A stretch of 56,044 nucleotides of DNA from a virus: IMG/VR virus record IMGVR_UViG_3300011114_001021, positions 1 through 56,044 of that record. One strand, 5' to 3'. The notes under the pieces were generated by a model. It was given only the letters and a program-made list of their open reading frames with translations. It did not search any database and was not told where the DNA came from. Shown here in pieces: positions 1 to 41,028 of this stretch; the stretch's first letter is position 1; each line of letters begins with the position of its first letter. Position numbers and translations under genes: made by a program.

Positions 1-208
1 AGCCAGAGCCATAGCCATCGCCATAGCCATAGCCATCGCCATCGCCATAGCCATAGTCAGAGCCATAGCCATAGCCATCGCCATTGCCATTGCCATAGCC
101 ATAGCCATAGCCATTGCCATTGCCATAGCCATTGCCATAGCCATTGCCATAGCCATTGCCATCGCTATGCGAGTTCTGAGAATCTTCGAAGTTGATTGCT
201 ATTTTCAT
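1..208 (-). CDS. Gly-rich GY/GN/GD-repeat protein, 3' part cut by window edge
   Basis: The ATG at 208-206 opens a frame that stays open to the window edge (69 codons). It starts MKIAINFEDSQNSHSDG and then becomes a pure glycine-alternating repeat (NGYG, DGYG, YGYG) encoded by a GCCATA/GCCATC hexamer microsatellite on the plus strand. The same EDSQNSH module followed by Gly repeats recurs in the genes at 30807-31121 and 31123-31782. No function is recognised. The C-terminus lies outside the window, so its length is unknown. Confidence 0.6.
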   Translation of the reverse strand, partial: MKIAINFEDSQNSHSDGNGYGNGYGNGYGNGNGYGYGYGNGNGDGYGYGSDYGYGDGDGYGYGDGYGSG

Positions 209-289
209 TGCAATGTCGATGTTTTTATCAATAAAAACTGTGTGAATCAAATGGGGGAGGTGCGCCTCCCCCACTGGAAACTGCGTGGC

Positions 290-676
290 TTACATCAATG
301 CATTAACCCACTTGGCTGAATTGCAAGTGATGGTATGAACCACCGTGAGCCAGTCGAACTCCACCTCACCATCGCACTTGTCGAGAACCGTAGCCTTAGT
401 CGGGCCGTTCACGAGTTCCGGAAGTCCCTTCGTAGTTCCCCACACGCGGATGTTCGAAGCGTTCGTGAGCTTGCAGCCCGTGCCGTCGTCGCGAGTGAAA
501 TAGCCGACGTAGACCCAACCACGTTGGAGGACGACGATCTTGATGTCACGCCACACCTTCTCGTCCGAGGGATTCTGCGGCTTCGAAGCTGCAGGAATCA
601 AATCCTTGCGGATGTATTTAACGCCATCTAATTCGATTTCGCTGTTCTGATTGTCCGTGCTAATGTTGTTGCTCAT
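290..676 (-). CDS. Small conserved phage protein, DUF6948-like
   Basis: 128 aa. The N-terminal 30 residues are polar (MSNNISTDNQNSEIELDGVK). The rest is a compact beta-rich domain with the pattern VYVGYF..GTGCKLTNASNIRVWG, a central Leu-Pro-Glu-Leu stretch and a terminal VHTITC strand. It resembles, from memory, the DUF6948 family of small phage proteins in which a Gly-rich strand is followed by NA-x-x-IW-x-W. The function of that family is unknown. Three direct repeats (687-731) lie just upstream of the start and may control it. Confidence 0.6.
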   Translation of the reverse strand: MSNNISTDNQNSEIELDGVKYIRKDLIPAASKPQNPSDEKVWRDIKIVVLQRGWVYVGYFTRDDGTGCKLTNASNIRVWGTTKGLPELVNGPTKATVLDKCDGEVEFDWLTVVHTITCNSAKWVNALM

Positions 677-686
677 AATGTTTTTG

Positions 687-731
687 TTTTACTATCCTGT
701 TTGTTTTACTATCCTGTTTTTACTATCCTGT
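687..731. repeat. Three direct repeats upstream of the 290-676 gene
   Basis: The 14-mer TTTTACTATCCTGT occurs at 687-700, 704-717 and 718-731, that is ACAGGATAGTAAAA three times when read toward the 290-676 gene. The last copy ends only 11 bases before the start codon. An operator array or repeated -10-like elements are both possible. Confidence 0.7.
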
Positions 732-775
732 CTGTTTACCGTTTATCTTTCACACGAAAGAAAGTGATGTCTAAA

Positions 776-1135
776 TTAAGCAATCAAATCTTTGCTGCTA
801 TGATCTGGAGCTTTAGAATTCGATTGGCAATAAGATTCCCACACCGTCAAATCCACCGCGCGCTTGCTCAAGAGCGCATATCGTTTGTGTAGACCCGCCC
901 AATAGATTTCCGTGCACTTCCTCTGCTTCGCGGTGCTATCATAGTGGTTGACGATCGTCTTCGCCGTTTTAGCGAGCCAGAGCAAAACTTTTGCTTCATT
1001 CATCGAAGGAATTCGAGACGTAATTTTCTCGAGAGGCCGCGGCGTCGAGGTTGTCGTCGAGGTTGTCGAGGTTGTCGAGGTCGCAATTTTCACCGGCTTG
1101 ACGGTCACAGGCTTAGCATGTTCTATTGTTTTCAT
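776..1135 (-). CDS. Unknown protein with Ser/Thr tandem repeat
   Basis: 119 aa. After MKTIEHAKPVTVKPVKIA comes a low-complexity TSTTSTTSTTTSTP stretch encoded by a GTTGTCGAG tandem repeat at about 1046-1082. A positively charged helical region follows (residues 45-100, many Lys and Arg, one Trp-Leu-Ala-Lys segment). No family is recognised. The repeat is prone to slippage, so the linker length may vary between relatives. Confidence 0.55.
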   Translation of the reverse strand: MKTIEHAKPVTVKPVKIATSTTSTTSTTTSTPRPLEKITSRIPSMNEAKVLLWLAKTAKTIVNHYDSTAKQRKCTEIYWAGLHKRYALLSKRAVDLTVWESYCQSNSKAPDHSSKDLIA

Positions 1136-1225
1136 ATTTGTATTCCGCGTTTTTCAATGGTGTTCAATTCACCGTGAACTCACACCAACGTGCCCCTTTT
1201 CATTGGCCACGTCTTTCTTTTGAAA

Positions 1226-1363
1226 TTATTCTACAGAATCGTCGAGCAGCTCGTCGATCTCTTTAGGATGTTGATAATTCAATTTCATGTCATCTTCGAA
1301 TCCACTCGGACATGCAAAGCCAGTTTCAATTAGAAATTTGATATATTGTAAAAATTTATTCAT
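1226..1363 (-). CDS. Small unknown protein (45 aa)
   Basis: MNKFLQYIKFLIETGF starts at 1363 and the acidic C-terminus ends with EIDELLDDSVE. It is placed a few bases after the corrected stop of the upstream gene (1379), the tight spacing usual in this genome. There is no homology that I recognise. Confidence 0.55.
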   Translation of the reverse strand: MNKFLQYIKFLIETGFACPSGFEDDMKLNYQHPKEIDELLDDSVE

Positions 1364-1378
1364 AGATGGTGTTTGAAA

Positions 1379-1691
1379 TTAGATGACCACGTTGAGATTG
1401 GCTGTCCGAACGAGTGAACCTGAAACCGAGTCCCGATTCCATTGTGCTACGCGCGTGGCGCATTGAAACAGAATCGCCGTGCTTTTTTCGAAAATGTCGA
1501 TTGGAACCATCACATCGGAAATTGGAATGTCCCGGGGCAGGATGCATCAGCTTGAGCCGAACCTCGTCTTTGAAATATACGACTTCGAGGATTCCGGGCT
1601 GAGAAGCTCGGCCGAATTTTTTTCCACAGACTTGAGGAACCTCGTAATGTTCCACTTTCTCCGCGTACGTTGATATGTTTTTCTGTTTCAT
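1379..1691 (-). pseudogene. Unknown early protein, apparently frameshifted
   Basis: From the ATG at 1691 the frame reads MKQKNISTYAEKVEHYEV to about residue 52 (EVRLKLMHP), with the segment QPGILEVVYFKDEV. It then becomes an unnatural His/Arg/Ser-rich sequence in the same frame (ending at 1356). The neighbouring frame instead gives LPRDIPISDVMVPIDIFEKS and a normal-looking protein to a stop at 1379-1381. This fits one extra base near 1535-1545, in a run of C. The gene has the same promoter cassette as 41224-41538, whose product shares the PGIL-x-VVY motif. Gene decay or a sequencing error cannot be separated here. Confidence 0.5.
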
Positions 1692-1700
1692 TCTGGTATA

Positions 1701-1764
1701 ATACTACCATGAAACAGGTGAATGTAAATAAAAAAATGAAAGTATTTTCAGGGCTGAATATCAG
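1701..1764 (-). repeat. Terminator-promoter cassette, copy 1
   Basis: Read on the minus strand: TGATATTCAGCC, a small TGAAA/TTTCA hairpin followed by seven T, then a -35 TTTACA (1728-1723), 16 bases, and a -10 TAGTAT (1706-1701). Transcription would begin near 1694, three bases before the ATG at 1691. Nearly identical copies lie at 5676-5740 and 41548-41611. Confidence 0.7.
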
Positions 1765-1802
1765 GCACTTGCAACTGCATGCAAGTCAGCAACCTTCGAC
1801 AA

Positions 1803-2444
1803 TCAGATGCTAATAGCATCTTCGGCTCGAGCCAATTTTCTATCTCGAATCGATTGACGATTGTCGAGGCGCGCCGTGCATTGATCGGCCGACATCCAAA
1901 GATCCTGCCCTTTGAGGATAGATGTGATTTCTTCGGAGGAGAGGAAATCGCGATAGGCATCTTTGAAAAGTGTTTCAGCCCACTTCGATTCAAAGGTGAG
2001 TTGGTCCATCATTTCACCACCCTTTCCAAATGTGCCACCGGAATAGTTGTGAATCATCAGAGATGCATGGGGGGAAAGCTTGTACATATCACACGCCAGA
2101 AAAATTAGTGTTGCGGCAGAAAAACATGCGCCTTCCACAGATCCGACAATCGTGCCTTCACATTCCGAAAAAGCTTGAAGAAATTGAATGGCCGTAAAAA
2201 GATCGCCTCCCATGGAATTGAAGTGAAAATGAAGGATGTCATCGGCAGTGCAATTTCGAATCATGTCAAACCATGTGGCATATTTTTCAGAACGTTCGAT
2301 TTCATCGCAGATGTAGAGGTGAATAACGCGGCCGCGATTGCGATCATCAAACACCAAATCAGATTTGTCTGTCCTTTTGTTTGAAAGAATATCAGCTATA
2401 TCTATTTCAAAATTAGAATTTGAGTGTTTTTTCATAGTCTTCAA
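1803..2444 (-). CDS. ClpP-like serine protease
   Basis: 213 aa, close to the usual ClpP length. The catalytic triad is visible: Ser109 in SVEGACFSAATLIF, His132 in ASLMIHNYSGG, and Asp187 in WMSADQC. The N-terminal half carries the strand FHFNSMGGDLFTA that lines the substrate channel in the family. ClpP-type enzymes form barrel proteases. In phages they act as head-maturation proteases or partner host Clp ATPases, and which applies here is not visible. The start overlaps the upstream nuclease gene by 32 bases, and a second Met at residue 4 is an alternative start. Confidence 0.85.
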   Translation of the reverse strand: MKTMKKHSNSNFEIDIADILSNKRTDKSDLVFDDRNRGRVIHLYICDEIERSEKYATWFDMIRNCTADDILHFHFNSMGGDLFTAIQFLQAFSECEGTIVGSVEGACFSAATLIFLACDMYKLSPHASLMIHNYSGGTFGKGGEMMDQLTFESKWAETLFKDAYRDFLSSEEITSILKGQDLWMSADQCTARLDNRQSIRDRKLARAEDAISI

Positions 2445-3153
2445 TGATTGCTAAAAGTGATGGAACCCAACGATCCCTGTCTTCAATAAAAATTAGTGGT
2501 TTTTTCTCGCCTACAACCGTCATGAGTGTCACGAGCTTAGTGATTGGAATTTTAGTTCTCTCCTCGAACATGATTGCATATGCACATTCCTGAATGTAAT
2601 AATCCTTGATATCTTTAGCCGTCTTTACACGCGAAGATGTTTTAAAGTCGATGATTGCAAGCTTGCCATCATATTCAGCAATTAAATCCACGCGGCCGGC
2701 AACTCTCAGATGTTCCGAGAATAGCGGTTTTTCCTGCATGCGAATTTGATCGACATGGAGATTCAATGTTTCTTCGAGCGCTCCAAACATTGCGATCGAA
2801 TCTGGCATGTCAGTATTCTCGAAAATAACATTCTCGTTTTCTATGTATCGTTGAACGATTGAATGGAGAGATTCACCTCTATTACACGCAATCGTAGAAA
2901 TTCTCTTGGCTTCAGTCTCTCCAACGAATTTCTTCCAAGCTTCAAGACCCGGTTTTTTGCGATGACCCAAGACTGTCGTGATAGATGGAAAGGTTTGAAA
3001 TTTCAAACCAGTAGTTGGAATGACGTACTGTCTTCGGCCACCTACTTCAAGAGTTTCCAGATCATCATATCCGAGATTAAGTGGAACGTGCTTAAATGTT
3101 TTTTTCCTCTCGAATTGAAGGAGATTGGATTTAAAGCTCACAATTTTAATCAA
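2413..3153 (-). CDS. PD-(D/E)XK nuclease (RecB/Cas4-like exonuclease)
   Basis: 246 aa. The nuclease core is clear: GRVDLIAEYDGKLAIIDFKT, giving Asp156 and the D169-F-K171 pair. It is followed by a YYIQECAYA helix matching the Q-x-x-x-Y motif of RecB-type nucleases. An SITTVLG segment near residue 57 is also typical of phage exonucleases of this group. It probably degrades or processes DNA ends during replication or recombination. It is translationally linked to the ClpP gene downstream and the zinc-ribbon gene upstream (ATGA overlap at 3150-3153). Confidence 0.85.
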   Translation of the reverse strand: MIKIVSFKSNLLQFERKKTFKHVPLNLGYDDLETLEVGGRRQYVIPTTGLKFQTFPSITTVLGHRKKPGLEAWKKFVGETEAKRISTIACNRGESLHSIVQRYIENENVIFENTDMPDSIAMFGALEETLNLHVDQIRMQEKPLFSEHLRVAGRVDLIAEYDGKLAIIDFKTSSRVKTAKDIKDYYIQECAYAIMFEERTKIPITKLVTLMTVVGEKKPLIFIEDRDRWVPSLLAIIEDYEKTLKF

Positions 3154-3407
3154 TAATGATCGACCATAGAATTCTTTCCAGCATACCGATCGATTTTCTT
3201 GAGGACATCATTCCAACCATTTCCAGCGCGGCGAATGGTAGTCTTACTGCCTTCGTAGGAAATTGAAGGAGATTGAATTATGCGTTCAATTTTTCCAATT
3301 GCATTGCAAAGAGGGCACGGTTTTTGCTTTGCCGTATCGCGTTGCACGATAATGACATTCAGTTCAAACGATTTATTACACGCACCGCATTCATAATGAT
3401 ATGTCAT
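3150..3407 (-). CDS. FmdB-like zinc-ribbon protein
   Basis: 85 aa. It begins TYHYECGACNKSFEL and contains CPLCNAIGKIERI, so two C-x-x-C knuckles about 20 residues apart form one zinc ribbon. The layout matches the small FmdB family of putative regulators common in T4-like phages. Its target is unknown. Confidence 0.75.
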   Translation of the reverse strand: MTYHYECGACNKSFELNVIIVQRDTAKQKPCPLCNAIGKIERIIQSPSISYEGSKTTIRRAGNGWNDVLKKIDRYAGKNSMVDHY

Positions 3408-3425
3408 AATATTGTTCTATCGCCC

Positions 3426-3641
3426 CTAGACCCTTTTAAAATTCTGAAGAAATTCTTCTTTCGACGAAAGCCATGAGAATGAATCGTCGACTTGAGTAAA
3501 GACATTGATTGCAGTCGATGCAACGAGCTCGTCTGGTTGTTCGCGGATATCGATGAGTGCAAATTTTCGACCACGAGCTTCAATAGGAGCTTGCCCCATG
3601 TATTGCCACGCCGAATTCAATTTGAGAGGCGAATTGTTCAT
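3426..3641 (-). CDS. Small unknown protein (71 aa)
   Basis: Starts MNNSPLKLNSAWQYMGQAPI and is 71 aa. It lies between a DUF6433-like gene and a zinc-ribbon gene with almost no spacing, which supports real coding. No motif is recognised. Confidence 0.55.
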   Translation of the reverse strand: MNNSPLKLNSAWQYMGQAPIEARGRKFALIDIREQPDELVASTAINVFTQVDDSFSWLSSKEEFLQNFKRV

Positions 3642-3643
3642 CG

Positions 3644-4081
3644 TTATACAATGCCTGGAATAGCTTCACGCACCATCGAAAGATTGAGAGCGGGCCACTT
3701 TTCCTGCAGCTTACGATCTTTAGCTAGGATTAGAACCTCAGCTTCACGCTCGTTAAGCGATTCTAAAATGCCTATGAAACGCTGATTTTTTTCGGATGGT
3801 GTGATTTTCTTATTTCGCACATCCAGCTCTAGAAGTTCTGGAATTATATTTCGAGTCCTGGACATCGACATGTCGGGATCGCCATTATCCCGATGAAATT
3901 TAGGAATTCCTGCAGGAAGCTCCAATTTTGCATCGGGTCGATAATTGATTTGAAGAATACTGTTCAATTCAAAACATCTAAATTGAGCCAGTTTAATTTT
4001 CCTACTTTGATAGTTAGGTTCACGCATCGCGCGATCTAGCATTTCAAATACGAGAGTGGGTTTCTGTTGAGTTGCATTCAT
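3644..4081 (-). CDS. DUF6433-like T4-type phage protein
   Basis: 145 aa. The pattern is characteristic of a protein family frequent in T4-like phages, as I recall DUF6433. It starts with a FEMLDRAMREPNYQSRK helix, then LNSILQINYRPDAKLELPAG, a central LLELDVRNKKI helix, and ends LNLSMVREAIPGIV. Related proteins have the same order: helix, ILQ-N-x-P, LP-x-G, then REA-x-PGL. The function is unknown. Confidence 0.7.
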   Translation of the reverse strand: MNATQQKPTLVFEMLDRAMREPNYQSRKIKLAQFRCFELNSILQINYRPDAKLELPAGIPKFHRDNGDPDMSMSRTRNIIPELLELDVRNKKITPSEKNQRFIGILESLNEREAEVLILAKDRKLQEKWPALNLSMVREAIPGIV

Positions 4082-4096
4082 ATTATATCTTATCTA

Positions 4097-4798
4097 TTAG
4101 ACTTTAACGATTCCGCTTTTAACCGCTTCGGCAGCTTGCGAAAGATTGTAATTGTAGTTGAAAATTCCGATATGTGAGATTTGACGTGAAAGCTCATGAT
4201 CACACCACACATCGATGCCATGGGCTCGGGCTTTGGCACAGAAGTAATAATCTTCGCCGACTTCAGAATTATGATCAGCCGAATATTCGAAAATGTAATG
4301 AGGAGCGGGAAGACGCTCGTAGACGGAACGATGAACAAGCATCATGCCATGGGGAAGACAATCGACCTTTTCGAGGGGAGGAGAATCGTCTGTCGTTTCA
4401 AATATGGTAGTCTGGCCAGGTTTTCCATTCATGGCCGTAAAATGCGGATTTGGAAAATATCGTTTTCGATAGTTCGCACCTACAAGTGGGACGCCACGAT
4501 TTAGAAGGCGAAGACAGGCATCTGGAGGAAACGCCATGTCCGAATCAATCCACCACGCATAATCACAATTCGATTTTAGAAAGTGCCCGACTAAGTTGCG
4601 TCGAGCGATTGTGATGACAGAAGATGTTTCAAACGTTGAAGCAACGCCGATACCATTGGCAACTAGCGATGCCGATCCCATCGCTAGGTAGTAGGCGAAT
4701 TGCGAATGAACATAATCGCCCGATGGAACGAGAGTCATGACCGAAATAGGTTTACGCGGCTCTTGTGGTGCAGGATTTCCAGATGTGTGTGATGGCAT
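4097..4798 (-). CDS. GT-A type glycosyltransferase
   Basis: 233 aa. The N-terminal strand PISVMTLVPSGDYVHSQFA leads into a Rossmann-like half. Residues 80-90 (YAWWIDSDMAF) supply the D-x-D metal/nucleotide-sugar motif, and GVPLVGANYRKRYFP follows. GEDYYFCAKARAHGIDVW near residue 185 matches the acid-base ED motif region of such enzymes. Acceptor and sugar are unknown. It stands apart from the large glycan cluster at 41.8-49.4 kb. Confidence 0.8.
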   Translation of the reverse strand: MPSHTSGNPAPQEPRKPISVMTLVPSGDYVHSQFAYYLAMGSASLVANGIGVASTFETSSVITIARRNLVGHFLKSNCDYAWWIDSDMAFPPDACLRLLNRGVPLVGANYRKRYFPNPHFTAMNGKPGQTTIFETTDDSPPLEKVDCLPHGMMLVHRSVYERLPAPHYIFEYSADHNSEVGEDYYFCAKARAHGIDVWCDHELSRQISHIGIFNYNYNLSQAAEAVKSGIVKV

Positions 4799-4816
4799 AA
4801 TTGAAGTTATGGTTTT

Positions 4817-5071
4817 CTAACAGAGTGCTTGATGCTTGGCAGATGAGCGTTCTAGATCGCAATATTTGCCAAAATGTTTATTGAAGACTTCAATCAAATT
4901 TTCATAATCTGAAAGTGTCATTTCCTTTTGAATATCCTGATAATTTAACTTGAGTTGAGAGGATAAATTTTTAGCATATCCCAAGAGAGCATATGCATTT
5001 CCACTTGGCCCATCGATATCGATGACTAAGCGCGGCTTTGGGGCACGATGATCTTTAATTAAAATAGCCAT
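4817..5071 (-). CDS. Small conserved phage protein (84 aa)
   Basis: The segment PRLVIDIDGPSGNAYALLGYA followed by a helical DYENLIEVFNKHFGKYCDLE is a pattern I recognise from many T4-like and other large phages, annotated there only as hypothetical. No catalytic motif is visible. Confidence 0.6.
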   Translation of the reverse strand: MAILIKDHRAPKPRLVIDIDGPSGNAYALLGYAKNLSSQLKLNYQDIQKEMTLSDYENLIEVFNKHFGKYCDLERSSAKHQALC

Positions 5072-5085
5072 AGCTGTTCTTCAAA

Positions 5086-5433
5086 CTATTTGAAATAGGC
5101 GATGTAGAGACGCTTGCCTATCACGGCTGTCATATACTGTTCACATAGAGAAGTTGTCTGAGGTTCCGACATATATGATCTGTTAATCTTACCGACGATG
5201 CGCTTGACGGTCAAATCGGATATGTCGCTATCCTGCATATATCCTCGGGCTCCTCCGCGAGCTCGGTATTTCGAAGCATAGCTATGTTTTCCCGAGCATC
5301 CACAGCAACACGCGCCAGTCTTACCAGAATAGACTGAAATGACATCGTCGACGTCGACAACAGGAACATCAGTCCACGTTTCTCTCATAGGCTTCTCAGA
5401 CTTTTTCTTCAAGGTTTTTGGGATTTTTTTCAT
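5086..5433 (-). CDS. Small Cys-rich unknown protein
   Basis: 115 aa with a basic start (MKKIPKTLKKKSEK). The signature VISVYSGKTGACCCGCSGKH at about residues 32-51, with four Cys in six positions, suggests a metal site. Similar Cys clusters occur in uncharacterised phage proteins. It sits directly downstream of the lipoprotein gene. Confidence 0.6.
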   Translation of the reverse strand: MKKIPKTLKKKSEKPMRETWTDVPVVDVDDVISVYSGKTGACCCGCSGKHSYASKYRARGGARGYMQDSDISDLTVKRIVGKINRSYMSEPQTTSLCEQYMTAVIGKRLYIAYFK

Positions 5434-5451
5434 AATATAGTGGTGTAGAAT

Positions 5452-5643
5452 TTAGTGATGATTGAATCGATGGGGCTCGCACCTACGAAATATCGGCGAT
5501 TGATATATGTATACGGGCGACGGAGCATACCAAATTTGAGATGTTGGATAGGTATAAACTGAGCTCGTTTCAACGAAGCCGTATCCACCCACGCATCCCG
5601 AACACACAATTGCGCCGGCGATTATAGAAATTAGATTTTTCAT
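5452..5643 (-). CDS. Small predicted lipoprotein
   Basis: 63 aa. A Lys-containing start (MKNLIS), a hydrophobic stretch (IIAGAIV) and a lipobox-like CSGC ending at residue 17 predict export and lipid attachment at Cys17. The mature part is Tyr/Pro-rich (SSVYTYPTSQIWYAPSPVYI). Outer-membrane spanin subunits and superinfection-exclusion lipoproteins have this size, but nothing distinguishes them here. An early promoter lies 33-60 bases upstream. Confidence 0.65.
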   Translation of the reverse strand: MKNLISIIAGAIVCSGCVGGYGFVETSSVYTYPTSQIWYAPSPVYIYQSPIFRRCEPHRFNHH

Positions 5644-5675
5644 TTGTTTTTAATGTCTTATTCGATTACGATATC

Positions 5676-5740
5676 AGTATACCAAGAATTTTGAGGATGT
5701 AAATAAAAAAGTGAAAGTATTTTCAAGGCTTAATATCAAG
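5676..5740 (-). repeat. Terminator-promoter cassette, copy 2
   Basis: Same arrangement as 1701-1764: TGATATTAAGCC, a TGAAA/TTTCA hairpin plus T run, -35 TTTACA (5703-5698), 16-base spacer, -10 TATACT (5681-5676). It ends the GIY-YIG gene (its stop TGA is the first base triplet of the cassette) and drives the lipoprotein gene. Confidence 0.75.
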
Positions 5741-6179
5741 CACTTGCATGAAGAGCTGCCAGATGTGCTCTTCGAACTCGAGCCGACACCCATTCGTTGT
5801 AGAATTCTGAAGGCTTCAAGAGACAATGACGAGAGAAGATTTCATATGTTTCCCAATACGAACAATGAGCTTTCATTGCACAGACGTGAAGAATTTCCCT
5901 TGAAAATGCATCGGCGCCATGGACATCAACATCTTTCTGTACAGCATCTGATGAGCCTCGATATTCCTTCCAATTTGATTCAACTTTGAACTTCTTCCTC
6001 TTCCCCTTGACTTGCTTGGATTTCGAGGACCAAAAGCTTTTCTTTCCAACATATTTCTTTCCAGAAATTTTATTGGTAATGATGTAAACAAATCCTTGAA
6101 TATTTTTAGGATCTGCATCGGATGGAAGGAAAAACTCTTTGCCTTGATATATCCATTGAATCATGCATATACTTATCAT
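5736..6179 (-). CDS. GIY-YIG endonuclease-like protein
   Basis: 147 aa from the ATG at 6179, chosen because it forms an ATGA overlap with the preceding gene; an ATG at 6188 is also possible. The motif GFVYIITNKISGKKYVGKKS is the GIY-YIG core in the Y-x-I...Y-V-G form. The downstream SSDAVQKDVDVHGADAF and SYWETYEIF (catalytic Glu candidate) segments fit the Seg-like family seen in cyanophages. It may be a free-standing homing endonuclease or a repair nuclease. No mobile intron is visible next to it. Confidence 0.75.
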   Translation of the reverse strand: MISICMIQWIYQGKEFFLPSDADPKNIQGFVYIITNKISGKKYVGKKSFWSSKSKQVKGKRKKFKVESNWKEYRGSSDAVQKDVDVHGADAFSREILHVCAMKAHCSYWETYEIFSRHCLLKPSEFYNEWVSARVRRAHLAALHASA

Positions 6180-6358
6180 TCTCCACAATCTTCATCGGCC
6201 GTAGATCCACAGAACGGACAGAGATTTGGAAAATGTTCATCCTCATCGATATCGGTTTCGAAATCTTCCTGAGGATCATATTCCCGAGTCTGGGAAATTT
6301 CTGTCCATCTAATGCGATATGAAATATTGCAACCCGAACAATAAAAAGAAGCTTTCAT
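6176..6358 (-). CDS. Small zinc-finger protein (60 aa)
   Basis: Two knuckles are visible, YCSGCNISY at residues 6-14 and LCPFCGSTADEDC near the end. A very acidic linker (DPQEDFETDIDEDEHF) separates them. It lies 6 bases after the nrdA stop and overlaps the GIY-YIG gene start. The role is unknown. Confidence 0.65.
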   Translation of the reverse strand: MKASFYCSGCNISYRIRWTEISQTREYDPQEDFETDIDEDEHFPNLCPFCGSTADEDCGE

Positions 6359-6364
6359 AGTTTT

Positions 6365-8017
6365 TTAGGCCTCACAGGATGCACATGTCAGGAGATTCCT
6401 GGAAAGTTCCGTCGATGGATTTGTGCCCCTCTGATAATACAATGTCTTGATCCCCTGTTCCCAAGCAAAAATTAGAAGCTGATTTACGTCTTTCACTGGC
6501 ATTTTCGGATGAATCATTAGATTGATTGACTGTGATTGATCGATGAACTTCTGTCTTCCGATGGCCTGAATTACAATTTCCCTCTGGGAGATCTCACCGA
6601 AGGTCTTGAACACGGCTTTTTCCTCGATCGATAGGAATTTGAGGTGCTGAACTGAGCCTCCCTTGGTTAGGATAGAAGACCACGTTTCTCTATCATTCCT
6701 CTTGTATTTATCGAGGACGTCCATTAGAAATGGATTCTTGAATGTAAATTTGCCCTTGGCCAGATCTTTGACGAAGTAATTTGAATTGAGAGGCTCGACG
6801 GATGGTGAAACCTGGCCAAGGATGAAGGAAGAGGAAGTTGTCGGTGCAATGGCCATCAGTGTCACATTCCTCCTTCCAATTCCCTTGAGCAGAGGTGGTT
6901 CGCCGAACATCACGGCCAGTTTTTTCGAAGCTTCCAAAGCTTTCTTCGAAATGTTTGAATGGATAGTTGTATTAAGCAACTTAGCTTCCATCGATTCAAA
7001 GGGTATCATTTTCGATTGAAGAAATGAATGCCACCCTAGGACACCGATTCCAATGGCTCTTTGATTGATGGCGAAATTGCGAGCCGGAGTCATGAAAGGA
7101 ATATGTTCCGTTTTATCGATAAACTCCGTCATGACAGCATCGAGAAACATGACTAGTATTTCAACAGCGTCGGTATTCACCCAGTTCTCATAGGTGAGCA
7201 GATTCATGGAGGATAGATTACATACGAAGGATTCGTCCGGAGCTGAGGAGAGGGCGATCTCACTGCAAAGATTAGATGCGTGGATAGACTTTCCATTCTT
7301 CTTATACACCTCCGGAGCTCCTCGATTGACCGTATCGGTAAAGAAGAGGTAAGGATATCCACTTTCGAAACGTTTCTGAATGATTTTCCCCCAGACCTTG
7401 CGCTTCTCTTTATCTCCTCCAATCATGGATTTCATCCACTTGTCGGTAATTGTAACCCCCATCGAAAGATGTTGAATAGGATATCCATCATCTCGAATCT
7501 GAAGGAATTCGAGAATGTCTGGATGTTCAATGGGAAGGTAAGCGGCAAAGGAACCTCTTCGAACATTTGACTGTGATACGACATTGGTCAGAGTTTCGAA
7601 GAGTTCCATGAAGTGAATTGGACCATTCGATTTTCCACCAGACTTAATTTTCCCTCCACGTTCTCGAAGAGCTCCAAAATAGGCCGATGTGCCACCTCCC
7701 ATCTTAGTCATCATTCCAACCTCGGGAAGCTTAGCCAGAATTGATTCCATCGTATCATCGATGTAGGAACCAAAGCATGATATTGGCAATCCTCGTTCTA
7801 GGCCAAAATTTGCCCAGATAGGAGAGGAAAGCGAATAGAATCCTCGAGACATGTAGTCTTCGAATTTGGCGCCAAAGCCTGGTATCTTCAGAATCTTTTC
7901 GGCCGCCATGGCAATTTCGCCAATTCGTTCTTCGGGAGTTGTGCCTTCTCGAAGGTATCCACGTTCAAGGAAAAGCCGCGCATCATCATTTAACCATTCA
8001 AAGGTTTTTTTATTCAT
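6365..8017 (-). CDS. nrdA: Ribonucleoside-diphosphate reductase, alpha subunit
   Basis: 550 aa class I large subunit that reduces NDPs to dNDPs with NrdB. The redox-active cysteines are seen in GLPISCFGSY (near residue 80) and VCNLSSMNL. The radical-site NLCSEIAL holds the catalytic Asn, Cys and Glu. The radical-transfer tyrosines are in KTLYYQRG, and the C-terminal shuttle is CASC. Typical enzymes, such as those of E. coli and T4, have about 750 residues. The N-terminal ATP-cone region that would give dATP regulation is absent, as in compact phage versions. It is 6 bases downstream of nrdB, so one operon. Confidence 0.95.
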   Translation of the reverse strand: MNKKTFEWLNDDARLFLERGYLREGTTPEERIGEIAMAAEKILKIPGFGAKFEDYMSRGFYSLSSPIWANFGLERGLPISCFGSYIDDTMESILAKLPEVGMMTKMGGGTSAYFGALRERGGKIKSGGKSNGPIHFMELFETLTNVVSQSNVRRGSFAAYLPIEHPDILEFLQIRDDGYPIQHLSMGVTITDKWMKSMIGGDKEKRKVWGKIIQKRFESGYPYLFFTDTVNRGAPEVYKKNGKSIHASNLCSEIALSSAPDESFVCNLSSMNLLTYENWVNTDAVEILVMFLDAVMTEFIDKTEHIPFMTPARNFAINQRAIGIGVLGWHSFLQSKMIPFESMEAKLLNTTIHSNISKKALEASKKLAVMFGEPPLLKGIGRRNVTLMAIAPTTSSSFILGQVSPSVEPLNSNYFVKDLAKGKFTFKNPFLMDVLDKYKRNDRETWSSILTKGGSVQHLKFLSIEEKAVFKTFGEISQREIVIQAIGRQKFIDQSQSINLMIHPKMPVKDVNQLLIFAWEQGIKTLYYQRGTNPSTELSRNLLTCASCEA

Positions 8018-8023
8018 TACGAT

Positions 8024-9004
8024 TTAATCAAATAAGTCTTCTTCTCCATATGACTTGTCATTTTTCGAATATTCGATTGGCCGCCGGGAAAAGAAATCGG
8101 TAGCCGTATTGCCGAGGACATCTTCTGAAAACCAAGTTGTCTTCTCAATCAACGATATATCTATATCTTCAAAAACCGGCTTGATGCCAATTTGAATCAG
8201 AGAATCATTCAGACGGTTCTTGATAAAATTCTTTACAATGTCAGAGGTTAAATTTTCTGACCTATAATTGTTTAACGACCAATCAATTATCTTCGCTTCG
8301 GCTTCATATGCTTCGATGCATTCCAATCGGATTTTTTCAATGAGCTCATCGTCGAAGAGTTCAGGATGTTCCACTCTAATGACATTGATCAGTTTCATTC
8401 CAGCCATGGCATGGAGAAGTTCTTCCCTCGAAGTATATGCCACTTGCTGAGCCGTATCTTTCAAGACGTTCTTAAAGCGATTGAAGTAATTGATTGTGTA
8501 GAACTGAGAGAAGAGCGACACGTTTTCGACGTAGAGGGTAAAAAGAACTAAAGAGTATACGTATTGCTTCCTGGCATCCTTGTAATGCTTCTTCAAATAC
8601 TTTCGAAGATACTTTACTCGATTCTGAATTATATCGAGTTTCAAATTCTCTTCGAAGATGTGTTCCATGTCGAGCACCTTCAAGAGCCGCTCATAGGCAT
8701 TGTTATGAATAACTTCAACGTTGGCCATCACGTAGCCCATATCGACAATCGATGGATGGGGAAGATTTTCACCAATCTTGGCCCAAAATGTTTTGACAGC
8801 AACTTCAATCTGAGCAATTGCAGAAAGAGACCGCGTAATCATTTCCCTTTCCTGATCATTTAGATTTACCTTGAAATCCTGAACGTCAGATTGAAAATTG
8901 AATTCTTTGTCGGTCCAGCATCCATTATGCATAGCATTGATGAATTCGGTTGTCCACGGATAGTGATCCGGCTTCCGATATATCTGTTCGTCGAATATTG
9001 GCAT
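8024..9004 (-). CDS. nrdB: Ribonucleoside-diphosphate reductase, beta subunit
   Basis: 326 aa. Ferritin-like helices carry metal ligands in IAQIEVAVK (Glu67), ANVEVIHNNAYERLL (Glu97, His100 and candidate radical Tyr104) and the second pair in SREELLHAMAG. It generates the radical used by NrdA. The early promoter at 9129-9157 and a late-type TATAAATG at 9111-9118 lie upstream. Confidence 0.95.
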   Translation of the reverse strand: MPIFDEQIYRKPDHYPWTTEFINAMHNGCWTDKEFNFQSDVQDFKVNLNDQEREMITRSLSAIAQIEVAVKTFWAKIGENLPHPSIVDMGYVMANVEVIHNNAYERLLKVLDMEHIFEENLKLDIIQNRVKYLRKYLKKHYKDARKQYVYSLVLFTLYVENVSLFSQFYTINYFNRFKNVLKDTAQQVAYTSREELLHAMAGMKLINVIRVEHPELFDDELIEKIRLECIEAYEAEAKIIDWSLNNYRSENLTSDIVKNFIKNRLNDSLIQIGIKPVFEDIDISLIEKTTWFSEDVLGNTATDFFSRRPIEYSKNDKSYGEEDLFD

Positions 9005-29691: not shown

Positions 29692-30806
29692 ATAAAAAAT
29701 TCATCGAGGCCACCAGATATTTGAGTGGCTACTTCTAATTTATCCGATCTTTTTCTATCGGGGACCGGAAAATCTTGGGTGCCATTCCAATAAGGATAGA
29801 ACTCCCTGGAGAGGTGGATAGAATGAGGTTTCTCCATGAACTTAAAATCGAGCTCGCCCTTTCCATTCAAGAGATAGTCCGTCCAACGAATAAATTTAAT
29901 TCCACGCTCCTTCGAAAGCGCTTCTACATCCCGATTGAAAGTTCTACGAATAGCATCTCTCTCGTGCCATGAACCCCAGAATGGTTTGCCTTTGTAATAA
30001 CCAGTCTTTGGAAGCTTGCGCGATTCGTTTTCAAGCGGAAGCAATTCATAGATAGCCGTGTCTTTGATGGGTAACGCATCAACGGCCTGAACATATCGCT
30101 TGGCTAAAGTCGCGGCGTTTTCAAAGGCATCACCTTCCAATTGACAGAGATGATGACGTACGTCAATATTGCCAAAGTAGAATTCCGCGGAAGTTACTCT
30201 GTCGAAGGAGGTAAACTCTTCGATGAATGTATTAAGCCCCGTTGTCAATGCGCCATTCAGAGTCTTAAATGGAATGGAATTTACAGTCCATCCTGGGCGA
30301 TGCATGCAAATCGAATGGGAGTCTCCAATGACAATCCTATCCGTGATGTGTGGAAATCGAATCTTGGTACTTTCTCGGCGCATGCGCTCGAGATTTTTAA
30401 TGTCGACGTCGAGCCATTCGGCCTGAATCTCCTTCTTATTACTCGTCGCATTCTGAATGCGTTCTTCAATCATCTCATCGATCTTAGGAAAATCTATGCC
30501 TAAAGAATACACCTTGCCTTTAAATTTAGAAAAGTTTCGTATGTTCCAAGCATAGGGAAATGATTGAACACCTCCAAAGAGATTTAATGTTCCAGCCCAA
30601 TCTGAACCCCAATACACATATAGTACATCATATTCATTGTGATCTTGATGTGCCGTGCCCGCCCAATTGATATCGACGACGTCGTACTTTCCAGTCTGCC
30701 GAATCTGATCCGCATAGATGATGCCTTGGGCGGATCGATGGGATGCCAGACGAGGAACTATGGGGATGAAGGGTGCGACTACCAAAGCCTTAGATTTCTT
30801 ATTCAT
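29688..30806 (-). CDS. SGNH-hydrolase-like protein
   Basis: 372 aa. The N-terminus KALVVAPFIPIVPRLASHRS is followed at about residue 158 by RIVIGDSHSICMHRPGW, the GDS(H) block with nucleophile Ser. Near the C-terminus KPHSIHLS could provide the catalytic His. The order fits an SGNH/GDSL-like esterase fold. The substrate is unknown. Its location in the modification island suggests an acyl or sugar group on DNA bases, but capsule deacetylation is equally possible. Confidence 0.65.
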   Translation of the reverse strand: MNKKSKALVVAPFIPIVPRLASHRSAQGIIYADQIRQTGKYDVVDINWAGTAHQDHNEYDVLYVYWGSDWAGTLNLFGGVQSFPYAWNIRNFSKFKGKVYSLGIDFPKIDEMIEERIQNATSNKKEIQAEWLDVDIKNLERMRRESTKIRFPHITDRIVIGDSHSICMHRPGWTVNSIPFKTLNGALTTGLNTFIEEFTSFDRVTSAEFYFGNIDVRHHLCQLEGDAFENAATLAKRYVQAVDALPIKDTAIYELLPLENESRKLPKTGYYKGKPFWGSWHERDAIRRTFNRDVEALSKERGIKFIRWTDYLLNGKGELDFKFMEKPHSIHLSREFYPYWNGTQDFPVPDRKRSDKLEVATQISGGLDEFFI

Positions 30807-31121
30807 TCAATAACCTATTCCAAAGCCATCGCCAGAGCAAAAGTCACAATGGCCATTGCCATAGCCATAGCCATCGCCATGGCCATCGCCATCACCGGAG
30901 CCATCGCCAAAGCCATCGCCATAGCCATCGCCATCACCTGAGCCATCGCCAAAGCCATCGCCATAGCCATAGCCATAGCCCGAGCCATAGCCCGAGCCAT
31001 AGCCATAACAATAGCCATCGCCATTGCCATAGCCATCGCCATGCGAGTTCTGAGAATTTTCAAAGTTGACGGGGATTCTAGTTGGGCGAAAGACTCTAAA
31101 TTTTATTTCGCTATGCATCAT
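30807..31121 (-). CDS. Gly-repeat protein with EDSQNSH-type module
   Basis: 104 aa. The first 21 residues (MMHSEIKFRVFRPTRIPVNF) precede ENSQNSHGDGYGNGDGY and a long GYG/GDG/GSG repeat to the end. The DNA is a GCCATA/GCCATC hexamer array (about 30,850-31,042). It is packed without gap against its neighbours. Function unknown; a flexible adhesive or spacer protein is conceivable. Confidence 0.6.
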   Translation of the reverse strand: MMHSEIKFRVFRPTRIPVNFENSQNSHGDGYGNGDGYCYGYGSGYGSGYGYGYGDGFGDGSGDGDGYGDGFGDGSGDGDGHGDGYGYGNGHCDFCSGDGFGIGY

Positions 31122-38745: not shown

Positions 38746-39762
38746 TCATCGATCTTCACAATTGATCTTGCCAGACATTTTTTCCTGAAGGGATTGGATG
38801 TCCGCATCGACCATCAGACGTGCGAGGTCGGCGCATTTCGTCTTCGGCTCCCAGCCGAGTTTCTGCTTCGCCTTGCTGTAATCGCCGATGAGCAGCTCCA
38901 CTTCAGCGGGACGGAAATAACGCGGATCAATCTCGACATGTTTGTTCCAGTCGAGACCGGCGTGGCCGAAGGCAATTTCCAAAAATTCGCGGATACTGTG
39001 CGTCTCGTTCGTGGCCACGACGTAATCATCCGGCTGTTCCTGCTGAAGCATCAGCCACATCGCCTCGACATATTCCTTCGCGTAACCCCAGTCACGCTTG
39101 GCGTCGAGATTGCCGAGGAACAGCTTGTTTTGCAGACCGGCCTTGATGTGGGCGATGGCCCGGGTGATTTTGCGCGTCACAAAAGTTTCGCCGCGCCGGG
39201 GCGATTCGTGGTTGAACAAAATTCCGTTGCTGGCGTGCAGGCCGTAGGACTCGCGGTAGTTCACCGTGATCCAGTAGGAATAAACCTTCGCGCAACCGTA
39301 GGGGCTGCGCGGATAAAATGGCGTCGTCTCCTTCTGCGGCACTTCCTGCACCAGACCGTACATCTCGCTCGATGACGCCTGATAAAAGCGCGGCTTGAGT
39401 CCCGTCTCGCGGATCGCCTCCAGCAGCCGCACCGTGCCGGTGGCGGTGATGTCGGCGGTGTACTCCGGGCTGTCGAAACTGACGCGGACGTGGGATTGCG
39501 CGGCGAGATTGTAAATTTCCTCCGGCTGAATTTTTCCGAGCAGCCGCGCTATCGCGCTGCCATCGCTCAAATCGCCGTAATGCAAAAACAGCCGGGCCTT
39601 GCTGTCGTGCGGGTCGCTGTAAATATCATCGAGCCTTCCGGTGTTGAAGGTGCTGGCGCGACGGATGAGGCCGTGTACTTCATAACCTTTGCCCAGCAAA
39701 AGTTCGGCGAGATAGGAACCGTCCTGTCCGGTGATGCCGGTGATGAGTGCTTTTTTGCCCAT
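38746..39762 (-). CDS. gmd: GDP-mannose 4,6-dehydratase
   Basis: 338 aa. N-terminal [15 protein letters not shown] is the NAD(P)-binding Gly motif. ASSSEMYG holds the catalytic Ser/Thr-Glu region, and [20 protein letters not shown] supplies the Tyr-x-x-x-Lys pair. The gene is far richer in G+C than everything around it and uses GCG/CTG/GCC codons, so it looks recently acquired from a GC-rich bacterium. It makes GDP-4-keto-6-deoxymannose, precursor of fucose or rhamnose-type sugars, and may serve the glycan cluster at 41.8-49.4 kb. Confidence 0.95.
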
Positions 39763-39794: not shown

Positions 39795-40225
39795 TAGGGA
39801 GATTGCAGCCGGATATAAACCGACATCTTCAGCTTAGAAAGCTGATGTTTTTACGAAGGGTGACCTCAGTCGCGCCCGCCTCTGCCGAGGCGTTTCATTC
39901 GTATTTTAAACTATGCAATCAAAGTGCGGTCCCAGTGCTTATTCCATGTCGGCGTCTTTTCGATTCCGATGGGCTCAAGTCATGAATTTCGCTGTAGCTC
40001 ATCATGATCTCTTACCAGCTCTTGGCATCGCGACCGCCTTACGGAGGCTACAGTCACTGAATCCACTGGGACCTGTCAGTCAGTCTCTCATGCAACTCAA
40101 TGAGAAGCAAGGATCTTAGAGATTGCTGATCTGACAAAATTATTAAGCCGAATTGAGGTAAGTCTAGGGACGACGACCCCATCCCCCTAGAACCGGGGCA
40201 TGAAGCCCCTGTCCCTCAATCCAGC
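39795..40225 (-). ncRNA. Candidate large structured RNA between gmd and tRNA
   Basis: No convincing gene occupies this stretch, but at least nine perfect stems are visible. They include 39928-39937 with 40064-40073 (10 bp), 39801-39807 with 39914-39920 (7), 40152-40158 with 40214-40220 (7), 40163-40169 with 40185-40191 (7), 40195-40199 with 40205-40209 (5), 40074-40079 with 40131-40136 (6), 40086-40091 with 40100-40105 (6), 39877-39882 with 39887-39892 (6) and 39830-39835 with 39839-39844 (6). The minus strand is preferred because a late promoter and tRNA-Met lie just upstream. Position next to phage tRNAs recalls the large ornate RNAs GOLLD and ROOL, but I cannot match it to either. Confidence 0.6.
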
Positions 40226-40234
40226 AAATCAAAA

Positions 40235-40310
40235 TGGTAGCGGGTGAGGGATTCGAACCCTCGATCTCAACGTTATGAGCGTTGCGAGATAACCAACTTC
40301 TCTAACCCGC
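40235..40310 (-). tRNA. tRNA-Met (CAT)
   Basis: 76 bases with encoded CCA. Acceptor GCGGGTT/CACCCGC region, anticodon stem CAACG/CGTTG with loop CTCATAA, T arm GAGGGTTCGAATCCCTC. The late promoter TATAAATA at 40319-40326 predicts a transcript that starts almost at the mature 5' end. Confidence 0.93.
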
Positions 40311-40318
40311 GTTAAATT

Positions 40319-40326
40319 TATTTATA
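40319..40326 (-). promoter_or_regulatory. Late promoter TATAAATA before tRNA-Met
   Basis: Exact consensus, 8 bases upstream of the tRNA 5' end. It would also transcribe the structured region 39795-40225 and gmd. Confidence 0.7.
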
Positions 40327-40358: not shown

Positions 40359-40892
40359 CTATGCAATCCAAGCTGGAACCTCTCGGCGTTTCCAAGAAAA
40401 TAGCTGTCTCTTCTCGCCGAGGTAGTAATTTCTATATGATTTAATCGAATCACCGAATACTTTGTATTCTTCGGGCATAGCCGGAGTCGGCTGTGTAAAT
40501 GAGCCTTCGACAATATTCTTTGGCGCGCAACTCAAATCTTTCGTCAATCTACTAGTAGCGTGAACCTTACCATATCGGTGCGTGTATTCTTCCATCAGAG
40601 AGACAAACATCTCGAATAGCCACGCATAATTAGAAGAACTATGCCTTGCCCAAATAGCCGAAGGATGATTGACGTGCGTGGCAGAATACAGACTTGATTC
40701 CCGATTATCGGGAATGCTGTATCGAGTTTGCCTTCGTCCAGTTTTGCTAATCCCTAGGGATTGAATTCCATCCAGAACTCTATGGGAATTCGAAAGCAAT
40801 TGAGCATATTCGAGAATCATTTTCACGCAATGTTTATCAACGTGCATCTTTGCACAGTCTTTTACATCATGCTCTAGATAAAATATGTTCAT
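40359..40892 (-). CDS. Conserved phage protein with HVDKHCVKM motif
   Basis: 177 aa from the ATG at 40892 (MNIFYLEHDVKDCAKMHVDK, then HCVKMILEYAQLLSNSHR). This start motif and the later HPSAIWARHSSSNYAWLFEM are shared with an uncharacterised family found in cyanophages and other T4-like phages. It is helical with conserved His/Lys; an enzyme is possible but the role is unknown. A highly structured 5' region (40908-41028) lies 16 bases before the start. Confidence 0.7.
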   Translation of the reverse strand: MNIFYLEHDVKDCAKMHVDKHCVKMILEYAQLLSNSHRVLDGIQSLGISKTGRRQTRYSIPDNRESSLYSATHVNHPSAIWARHSSSNYAWLFEMFVSLMEEYTHRYGKVHATSRLTKDLSCAPKNIVEGSFTQPTPAMPEEYKVFGDSIKSYRNYYLGEKRQLFSWKRREVPAWIA

Positions 40893-40907
40893 ATCATTCA
40901 AAGAGAA

Positions 40908-41028
40908 GAGAGTCGCAAGATAGGCACCATGGATCGCGATTCCGAAGGGTGACACTATCAGTCATTCGGCCGCTCACTATCAATACATACATCTCATACG
41001 AATCAGTATGCACAGATTTGCGACTCTC
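40908..41028 (-). ncRNA. Candidate structured RNA element, possibly a 5' leader
   Basis: An 11-bp perfect outer stem (40908-40918 with 41018-41028) encloses GATAG/CTATC (40919-40923 with 40977-40981). That holds CCGAA/TTCGG (40942-40946 with 40965-40969) with an inner TGAC/GTCA. A separate hairpin CATAC/GTATG (40995-40999 with 41006-41010) completes a multi-branch fold of 121 bases. It ends 16 bases before the ATG at 40892, so it could be a cis-regulatory leader or an independent RNA. The rest of the 40893-41223 gap has only a doubtful 78-codon frame (40894-41130). Confidence 0.55.

Follow-up and report, generated by a model that had tools for sequence, protein, structure and literature searches.

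The nearest described analogues of the RNA reported here are T4 RNA C (species 1) and RNA D (species 2), small structured RNAs that adjoin the phage tRNA genes, where RNA D and RNA C come after tRNA-Arg. Both are late RNAs confirmed by Northern blot, and their function is not known (PMC9697503). GOLLD and ROOL likewise occur in phages and prophages in proximity to tRNAs and adopt elaborate folds. GOLLD RNAs are encoded in both phages and prophages, with GOLLD env-38 located downstream of tRNA-Met and its expression rising at lysis (PMC12286853). A further comparison is offered by the permuted tmRNA (RF04321) of T4-like aquatic phages, which has a tRNA-like part and lies downstream of the phrog_624 gene; among L003-L081, it is found 0.9-3.5 kb downstream of that gene at 37 of the 65 related loci with enough flank (cf. 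PMC9004378).

The locus described here is contained in a window of 56,044 nucleotides, meaning the whole stretch of DNA that was analysed, which is a partial environmental phage record carrying T4-type genes. Its DNA polymerase is nearest to those of T4-like phages, and it also encodes ribonucleotide reductase. Within this window, a tRNA gene and a sugar gene enclose a genuine folded RNA, some 430 bases long and hitherto uncatalogued (Table 1). The structured region is flanked on one side by a phrog_624 gene and tRNA-Met, and on the other by a gene that presumably encodes GDP-mannose 4,6-dehydratase (gmd). A conserved RNA fold, its strand, the adjacency of every copy to a tRNA gene and a late promoter box in both the window and the relative L002 have been demonstrated. 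It is probable that the RNA represents a new family of structured phage RNAs, expressed late, co-transcribed with tRNA-Met and probably processed into one or more stable RNAs. The gmd-like gene looks GC-rich relative to its surroundings, possibly reflecting recent acquisition.

Table 1. Features of the structured RNA locus and its flanks, in minus-strand order (5' to 3').
Feature	Position	Strand	Evidence
phrog_624 gene	40359-40955	minus	Context
T4-type late promoter box TATAAATA	40319-40326	minus	Box excess in window; kept in L002
tRNA-Met (CAT), presumed first element of the transcript	40235-40311	minus	ARAGORN; Rfam tRNA 62 bits
Domain A, three-way, 12-bp closing stem	40147-40225	minus	Fold -44 kcal/mol; L002 alignment
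hp1 hairpin	40074-40136	minus	Covariation; model R2 matches 56-70 bits
Core, multi-branch, 10-bp closing stem	39928-40073	minus	4 compensated closing-stem pairs; model R1 172-182 bits
tRNA-like cloverleaf	39801-39920	minus	Fold, strict descriptor; Rfam tRNA 20.6 bits
gmd-like gene (presumably GDP-mannose 4,6-dehydratase), next downstream	38746-39762	minus	PHROG nucleotide-sugar epimerase

The late promoter box is real as a class, with eight copies in the window against 2.4 expected, seven of them on the minus strand. Both the box and tRNA-Met (97% identical between the two records) are kept in L002; the box is absent from the 9.8 kb of L083 examined. Of what marks T4 RNAs C and D, late expression as a stable RNA beside tRNAs, the window sequence shows a late box and an adjoining tRNA. 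An 11-mer (GATTGCATAGT) occurs twice about 450 bp apart, once where the phrog_624 gene ends (40359-40370) and once at the 5' terminus of the tRNA-like domain (39909-39920), though this may be chance.

The structured RNA belongs to the minus strand. The fold of this strand reaches -165.9 kcal/mol (z -4.71), which none of 100 shuffles equalled; the plus-strand fold has a z of -1.96 and was equalled by three of 100. Of 126 folds computed for 430-nt segments sampled from both strands across the window, only two scored better, and both of these stretches (1-430 and 30601-31030) are simple DNA repeats coding for glycine-rich proteins. The repeat proteins concerned (1-195 and 30807-31121, both minus strand) are products of a repeated gene and have tails of the form (GYG/GDG/GNG)n and near-identical leaders (NFE.SQNSH.DG), and their DNA repeats fold strongly.

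Downstream of the late box and tRNA-Met, the RNA comprises four folded domains. Three elements of the original prediction were recovered where it had placed them: the three-way domain by fold analysis, the 10-bp closing stem (39928-39937/40064-40073) and the tRNA-like domain by folding combined with a cloverleaf descriptor. Domain A is just 62% identical between the window and L002, with one inner hairpin swapped for a different one in the latter. The hp1 hairpin, which has a 3-nt CAA bulge and a conserved asymmetric internal loop (ANGAUCCU), is common to the window, L002, L083, L099 and L103. It abuts the 10-bp stem of the core with zero gap. The core also occurs in L002 and L083, and its interior is nearly invariant; its inner helices are only predicted, since they barely vary among the three core sequences available.

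The fourth domain folds as a cloverleaf with several departures from an ordinary tRNA. It has a 7-bp acceptor (GAUUGCA/UGCAAUC) followed by UA at positions 8-9, a D stem (GUUU/AAAC; 39911-39908/39850-39847) enclosing a 57-nt D-loop with two hairpins, and an anticodon arm (UCAGC-UUUCUAA-GCUGA) that presents an Arg-like UCU anticodon. These are followed by a 4-nt variable loop (AGAU) and a T arm (GUCGG-UUUAUAU-CCGGC) with the degenerate loop UUUAUAU; CCA is not encoded. The domain fails as a tRNA on account of its sub-cut-off Infernal score (20.6 bits in the window and 18.9 bits in L002, against a cut-off of 29 bits), its 57-nt D-loop, its abnormal T-loop and the lack of an ARAGORN call. Applied to the whole window, the strict cloverleaf descriptor finds the domain and two ordinary tRNAs only, and none of 1500 shuffles of the region contains such a cloverleaf. 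Within the 1.17 Mb examined, it is the sole cloverleaf with a large D-loop, and the reversed control gave none. The domain is found in the window and L002 only, the latter breaking one anticodon-stem pair (U-A to C-A). Descent from a known phage tRNA was sought by sequence, and there was no clear parent. A cloverleaf carrying a 57-nt D-loop is unusual in its own right.

Relatives of the RNA differ in how many of these domains they share. L002 is the one full-length relative, with all elements in the same gene order and a phrog_624 protein 81% identical to that of the window. Identity between these two records is 93-94% in hp1, the core and the tRNA-like domain, compared with 57-66% in two of the four spacers. 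L083 is a more distant relative (phrog_624 41% and ribonucleotide reductase 81-88% identical to those of the window) and carries hp1 and the core only, at another locus, which adjoins tRNA-Thr and is separated from phrog_624 by about 5.6 kb; the tRNA-like domain was not found in this record. Its core interior is nearly unchanged, and its closing stem is altered on both sides, from GGUCCCAGUG/CACUGGGACC to UGCCUCGGUG/CACCGAGGCA. Two related tRNA-rich phages, L099 and L103, have hp1 embedded in a different RNA, which lies between tRNA-Ala and tRNA-Ser and forms a four-way junction of roughly 120 nt. All copies immediately follow a tRNA gene: tRNA-Met in the window and L002, tRNA-Thr in L083 and tRNA-Ala in both L099 and L103. 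Across 24 whole virus records, model R1 matches L002 and L083 only. Distant blastn searches of INPHARED (50,697 phage records) and PLSDB (72,556 plasmids) returned no relatives, and a scan of 84,980 genomes with the hp1 pattern gave a single match, a chance one inside a protein gene. L084-L087, several further candidate loci and the bacterial L113 were considered as relatives and proved to be chance matches.

Covariation among homologues, the lack of which had been named as refuting the original prediction, is real. In the alignment of the window, L002 and L083, compensation on both sides is seen at 8 of 64 pairs, a count reached by none of 500 shuffles, and four of these fall in the closing stem of the core. 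Paired cells make up 99.5% of this alignment and drop to 28-42% when the partner is slid as a control. The hp1 alignment draws on five records that give four distinct sequences, and 4 of its 12 pairs show compensation, which 6 of 500 shuffles reach; the hp1 covariation score is reached by none of 500. The region is also noncoding as had been claimed, and the second refuting condition, a conserved coding frame, does not apply: plus-strand ORFs (60 and 68 aa) are split into several frames in L002, and 1-2 nt indels occur within the core.

Comparison with catalogued RNAs agrees with the initial view that this is not a recognised one. Searches of the RNA in the window and in L083 against Rfam 15, at gathering thresholds and to E 10, yielded no family beyond the sub-threshold tRNA similarity, and so no match to GOLLD, ROOL, tmRNA or the group I intron. 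Bacterial Y RNA (YrlA) is a noncoding RNA with a tRNA-like module; it gave no Rfam match, and no TROVE/Ro protein occurs in the nine partial records searched. No tmRNA model, one-piece or permuted, matches the available sequence of the window, L002 or L083, and ARAGORN reports none in the window; the window RNA differs from the permuted tmRNA in having another fold and no tag peptide. Group I introns gave no match to the Rfam core models to E 10, and inspection by eye shows the R/S pairing of an intron core to be missing. A hammerhead was likewise considered by eye and rejected, its hammerhead-like GAAA being AAAA in relatives. T4 RNA C resembles the window RNA in ending in a T-arm-like hairpin, but its T-loop is canonical, and the same 7-bp acceptor cloverleaf does not follow from its annotated ends. 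Homology to RNAs C and D was not detected, blastn of the region against phages giving no match to the T4 tRNA region and the hp1 model R2 having none in T4, which lacks hp1.

These observations are consistent with the following route for the proposed late RNA family. RNA polymerase would start at the late TATAAATA box, so the transcript would begin near the 5' end of tRNA-Met. It would read through domain A, hp1, the core and the tRNA-like domain toward gmd, and host or phage tRNA-processing enzymes may cut at tRNA-Met and the tRNA-like domain, leaving one or two stable RNAs comparable to the late RNAs D and C beside the T4 tRNAs. The conserved working part would be hp1 with the directly adjoining core, in which outer-stem pairing is kept by compensation and the loops and core interior are near-constant, as expected of a surface for a conserved partner. 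This partner would most likely belong to the translation or tRNA machinery, because a tRNA gene immediately precedes every copy. Possible roles of the tRNA-like end are protection of the RNA and mimicry of tRNA-Arg(UCU).

Several other readings of the locus can be weighed against a processed late RNA. The region could be a cis-acting leader, akin to a riboswitch or RNA thermometer, controlling the next gene downstream. The window domains end 38 nt before gmd, and in L083 an ORF starts about 10 nt beyond the core, whose closing stem holds GAGG, a possible ribosome site (8213-8235), making local regulation possible in that record. However, the downstream genes differ between copies (gmd, an ORF without a family, and another tRNA in L099/L103), hp1 lies between two tRNAs in the last two phages, and in the window the core is separated from gmd by the tRNA-like domain and by a spacer of weak conservation; control of the next gene is improbable. 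About equally improbable is a new member of the GOLLD/ROOL kind, which would assemble with copies of itself. Both the setting in a phage next to tRNAs, down to tRNA-Met as for GOLLD env-38 (PMC12286853), and a self-complementary AUCAUGAU within the core are compatible with such assembly, and the earlier likening to GOLLD and ROOL stands as far as setting goes; it fails for sequence and fold, since those RNAs are longer, the window RNA being about half the size of GOLLD or less, and their Rfam models are unmatched to E 10.

Some nucleases cut the anticodon loops of tRNA-Arg, and the cloverleaf might act as a decoy that soaks up such tRNA-cutting host defence enzymes through its Arg(UCU) anticodon arm. 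The arm is intact, with U33, UCU and A37, on a body unlike a normal tRNA in its T-loop (UUUAUAU), its 57-nt D-loop and its lack of CCA. Yet no such domain turned up in L083, the L002 anticodon stem loses a pair and a decoy would account for only one of the four domains; this is slightly less likely than either the leader or the self-assembling RNA. Least likely by some distance is a decaying, no longer functional remnant of a tmRNA, tRNA array or intron. This would fit the occurrence of tmRNA at 37 of 65 related phrog_624 loci and its absence from the available window, L002 and L083 sequence, but it is disfavoured by the strong constraint on three domains relative to the two divergent spacers, by compensation in the stems, by the failure of tmRNA and group I intron models to match up to E 10, and by the absence of a visible tag frame.

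If the processed late RNA is correctly identified, it adds a compact further family to the phage RNAs, with a covarying module in phages without detected protein similarity; comparison of the window with 20 kb of the L103 record detected none. RNAs of such a kind are missed by Rfam and by annotation. To our knowledge, T4 RNAs C and D, GOLLD and ROOL are tRNA-adjacent phage RNAs still without a known function, and the approximately 45 nt of hp1, or the 209 nt of hp1 plus core, would provide a small, defined bait with which to fish for a partner. A more tentative reading, which we regard as possible and somewhat doubtful, is that hp1 is a portable RNA module whose conserved partner takes part in translation or the handling of tRNA, carried next to tRNAs on varied scaffolds by phages without detected protein similarity. 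Such a module would represent a new class, a late phage RNA acting on host translation or tRNA-defence machinery. In the window hp1 is joined to the core and the tRNA-like domain with its giant D-loop. The L099 record, which provides one of the other hp1 copies, holds 15 tRNA genes in 7.5 kb (1-7554), with HNH endonuclease genes interspersed among them.
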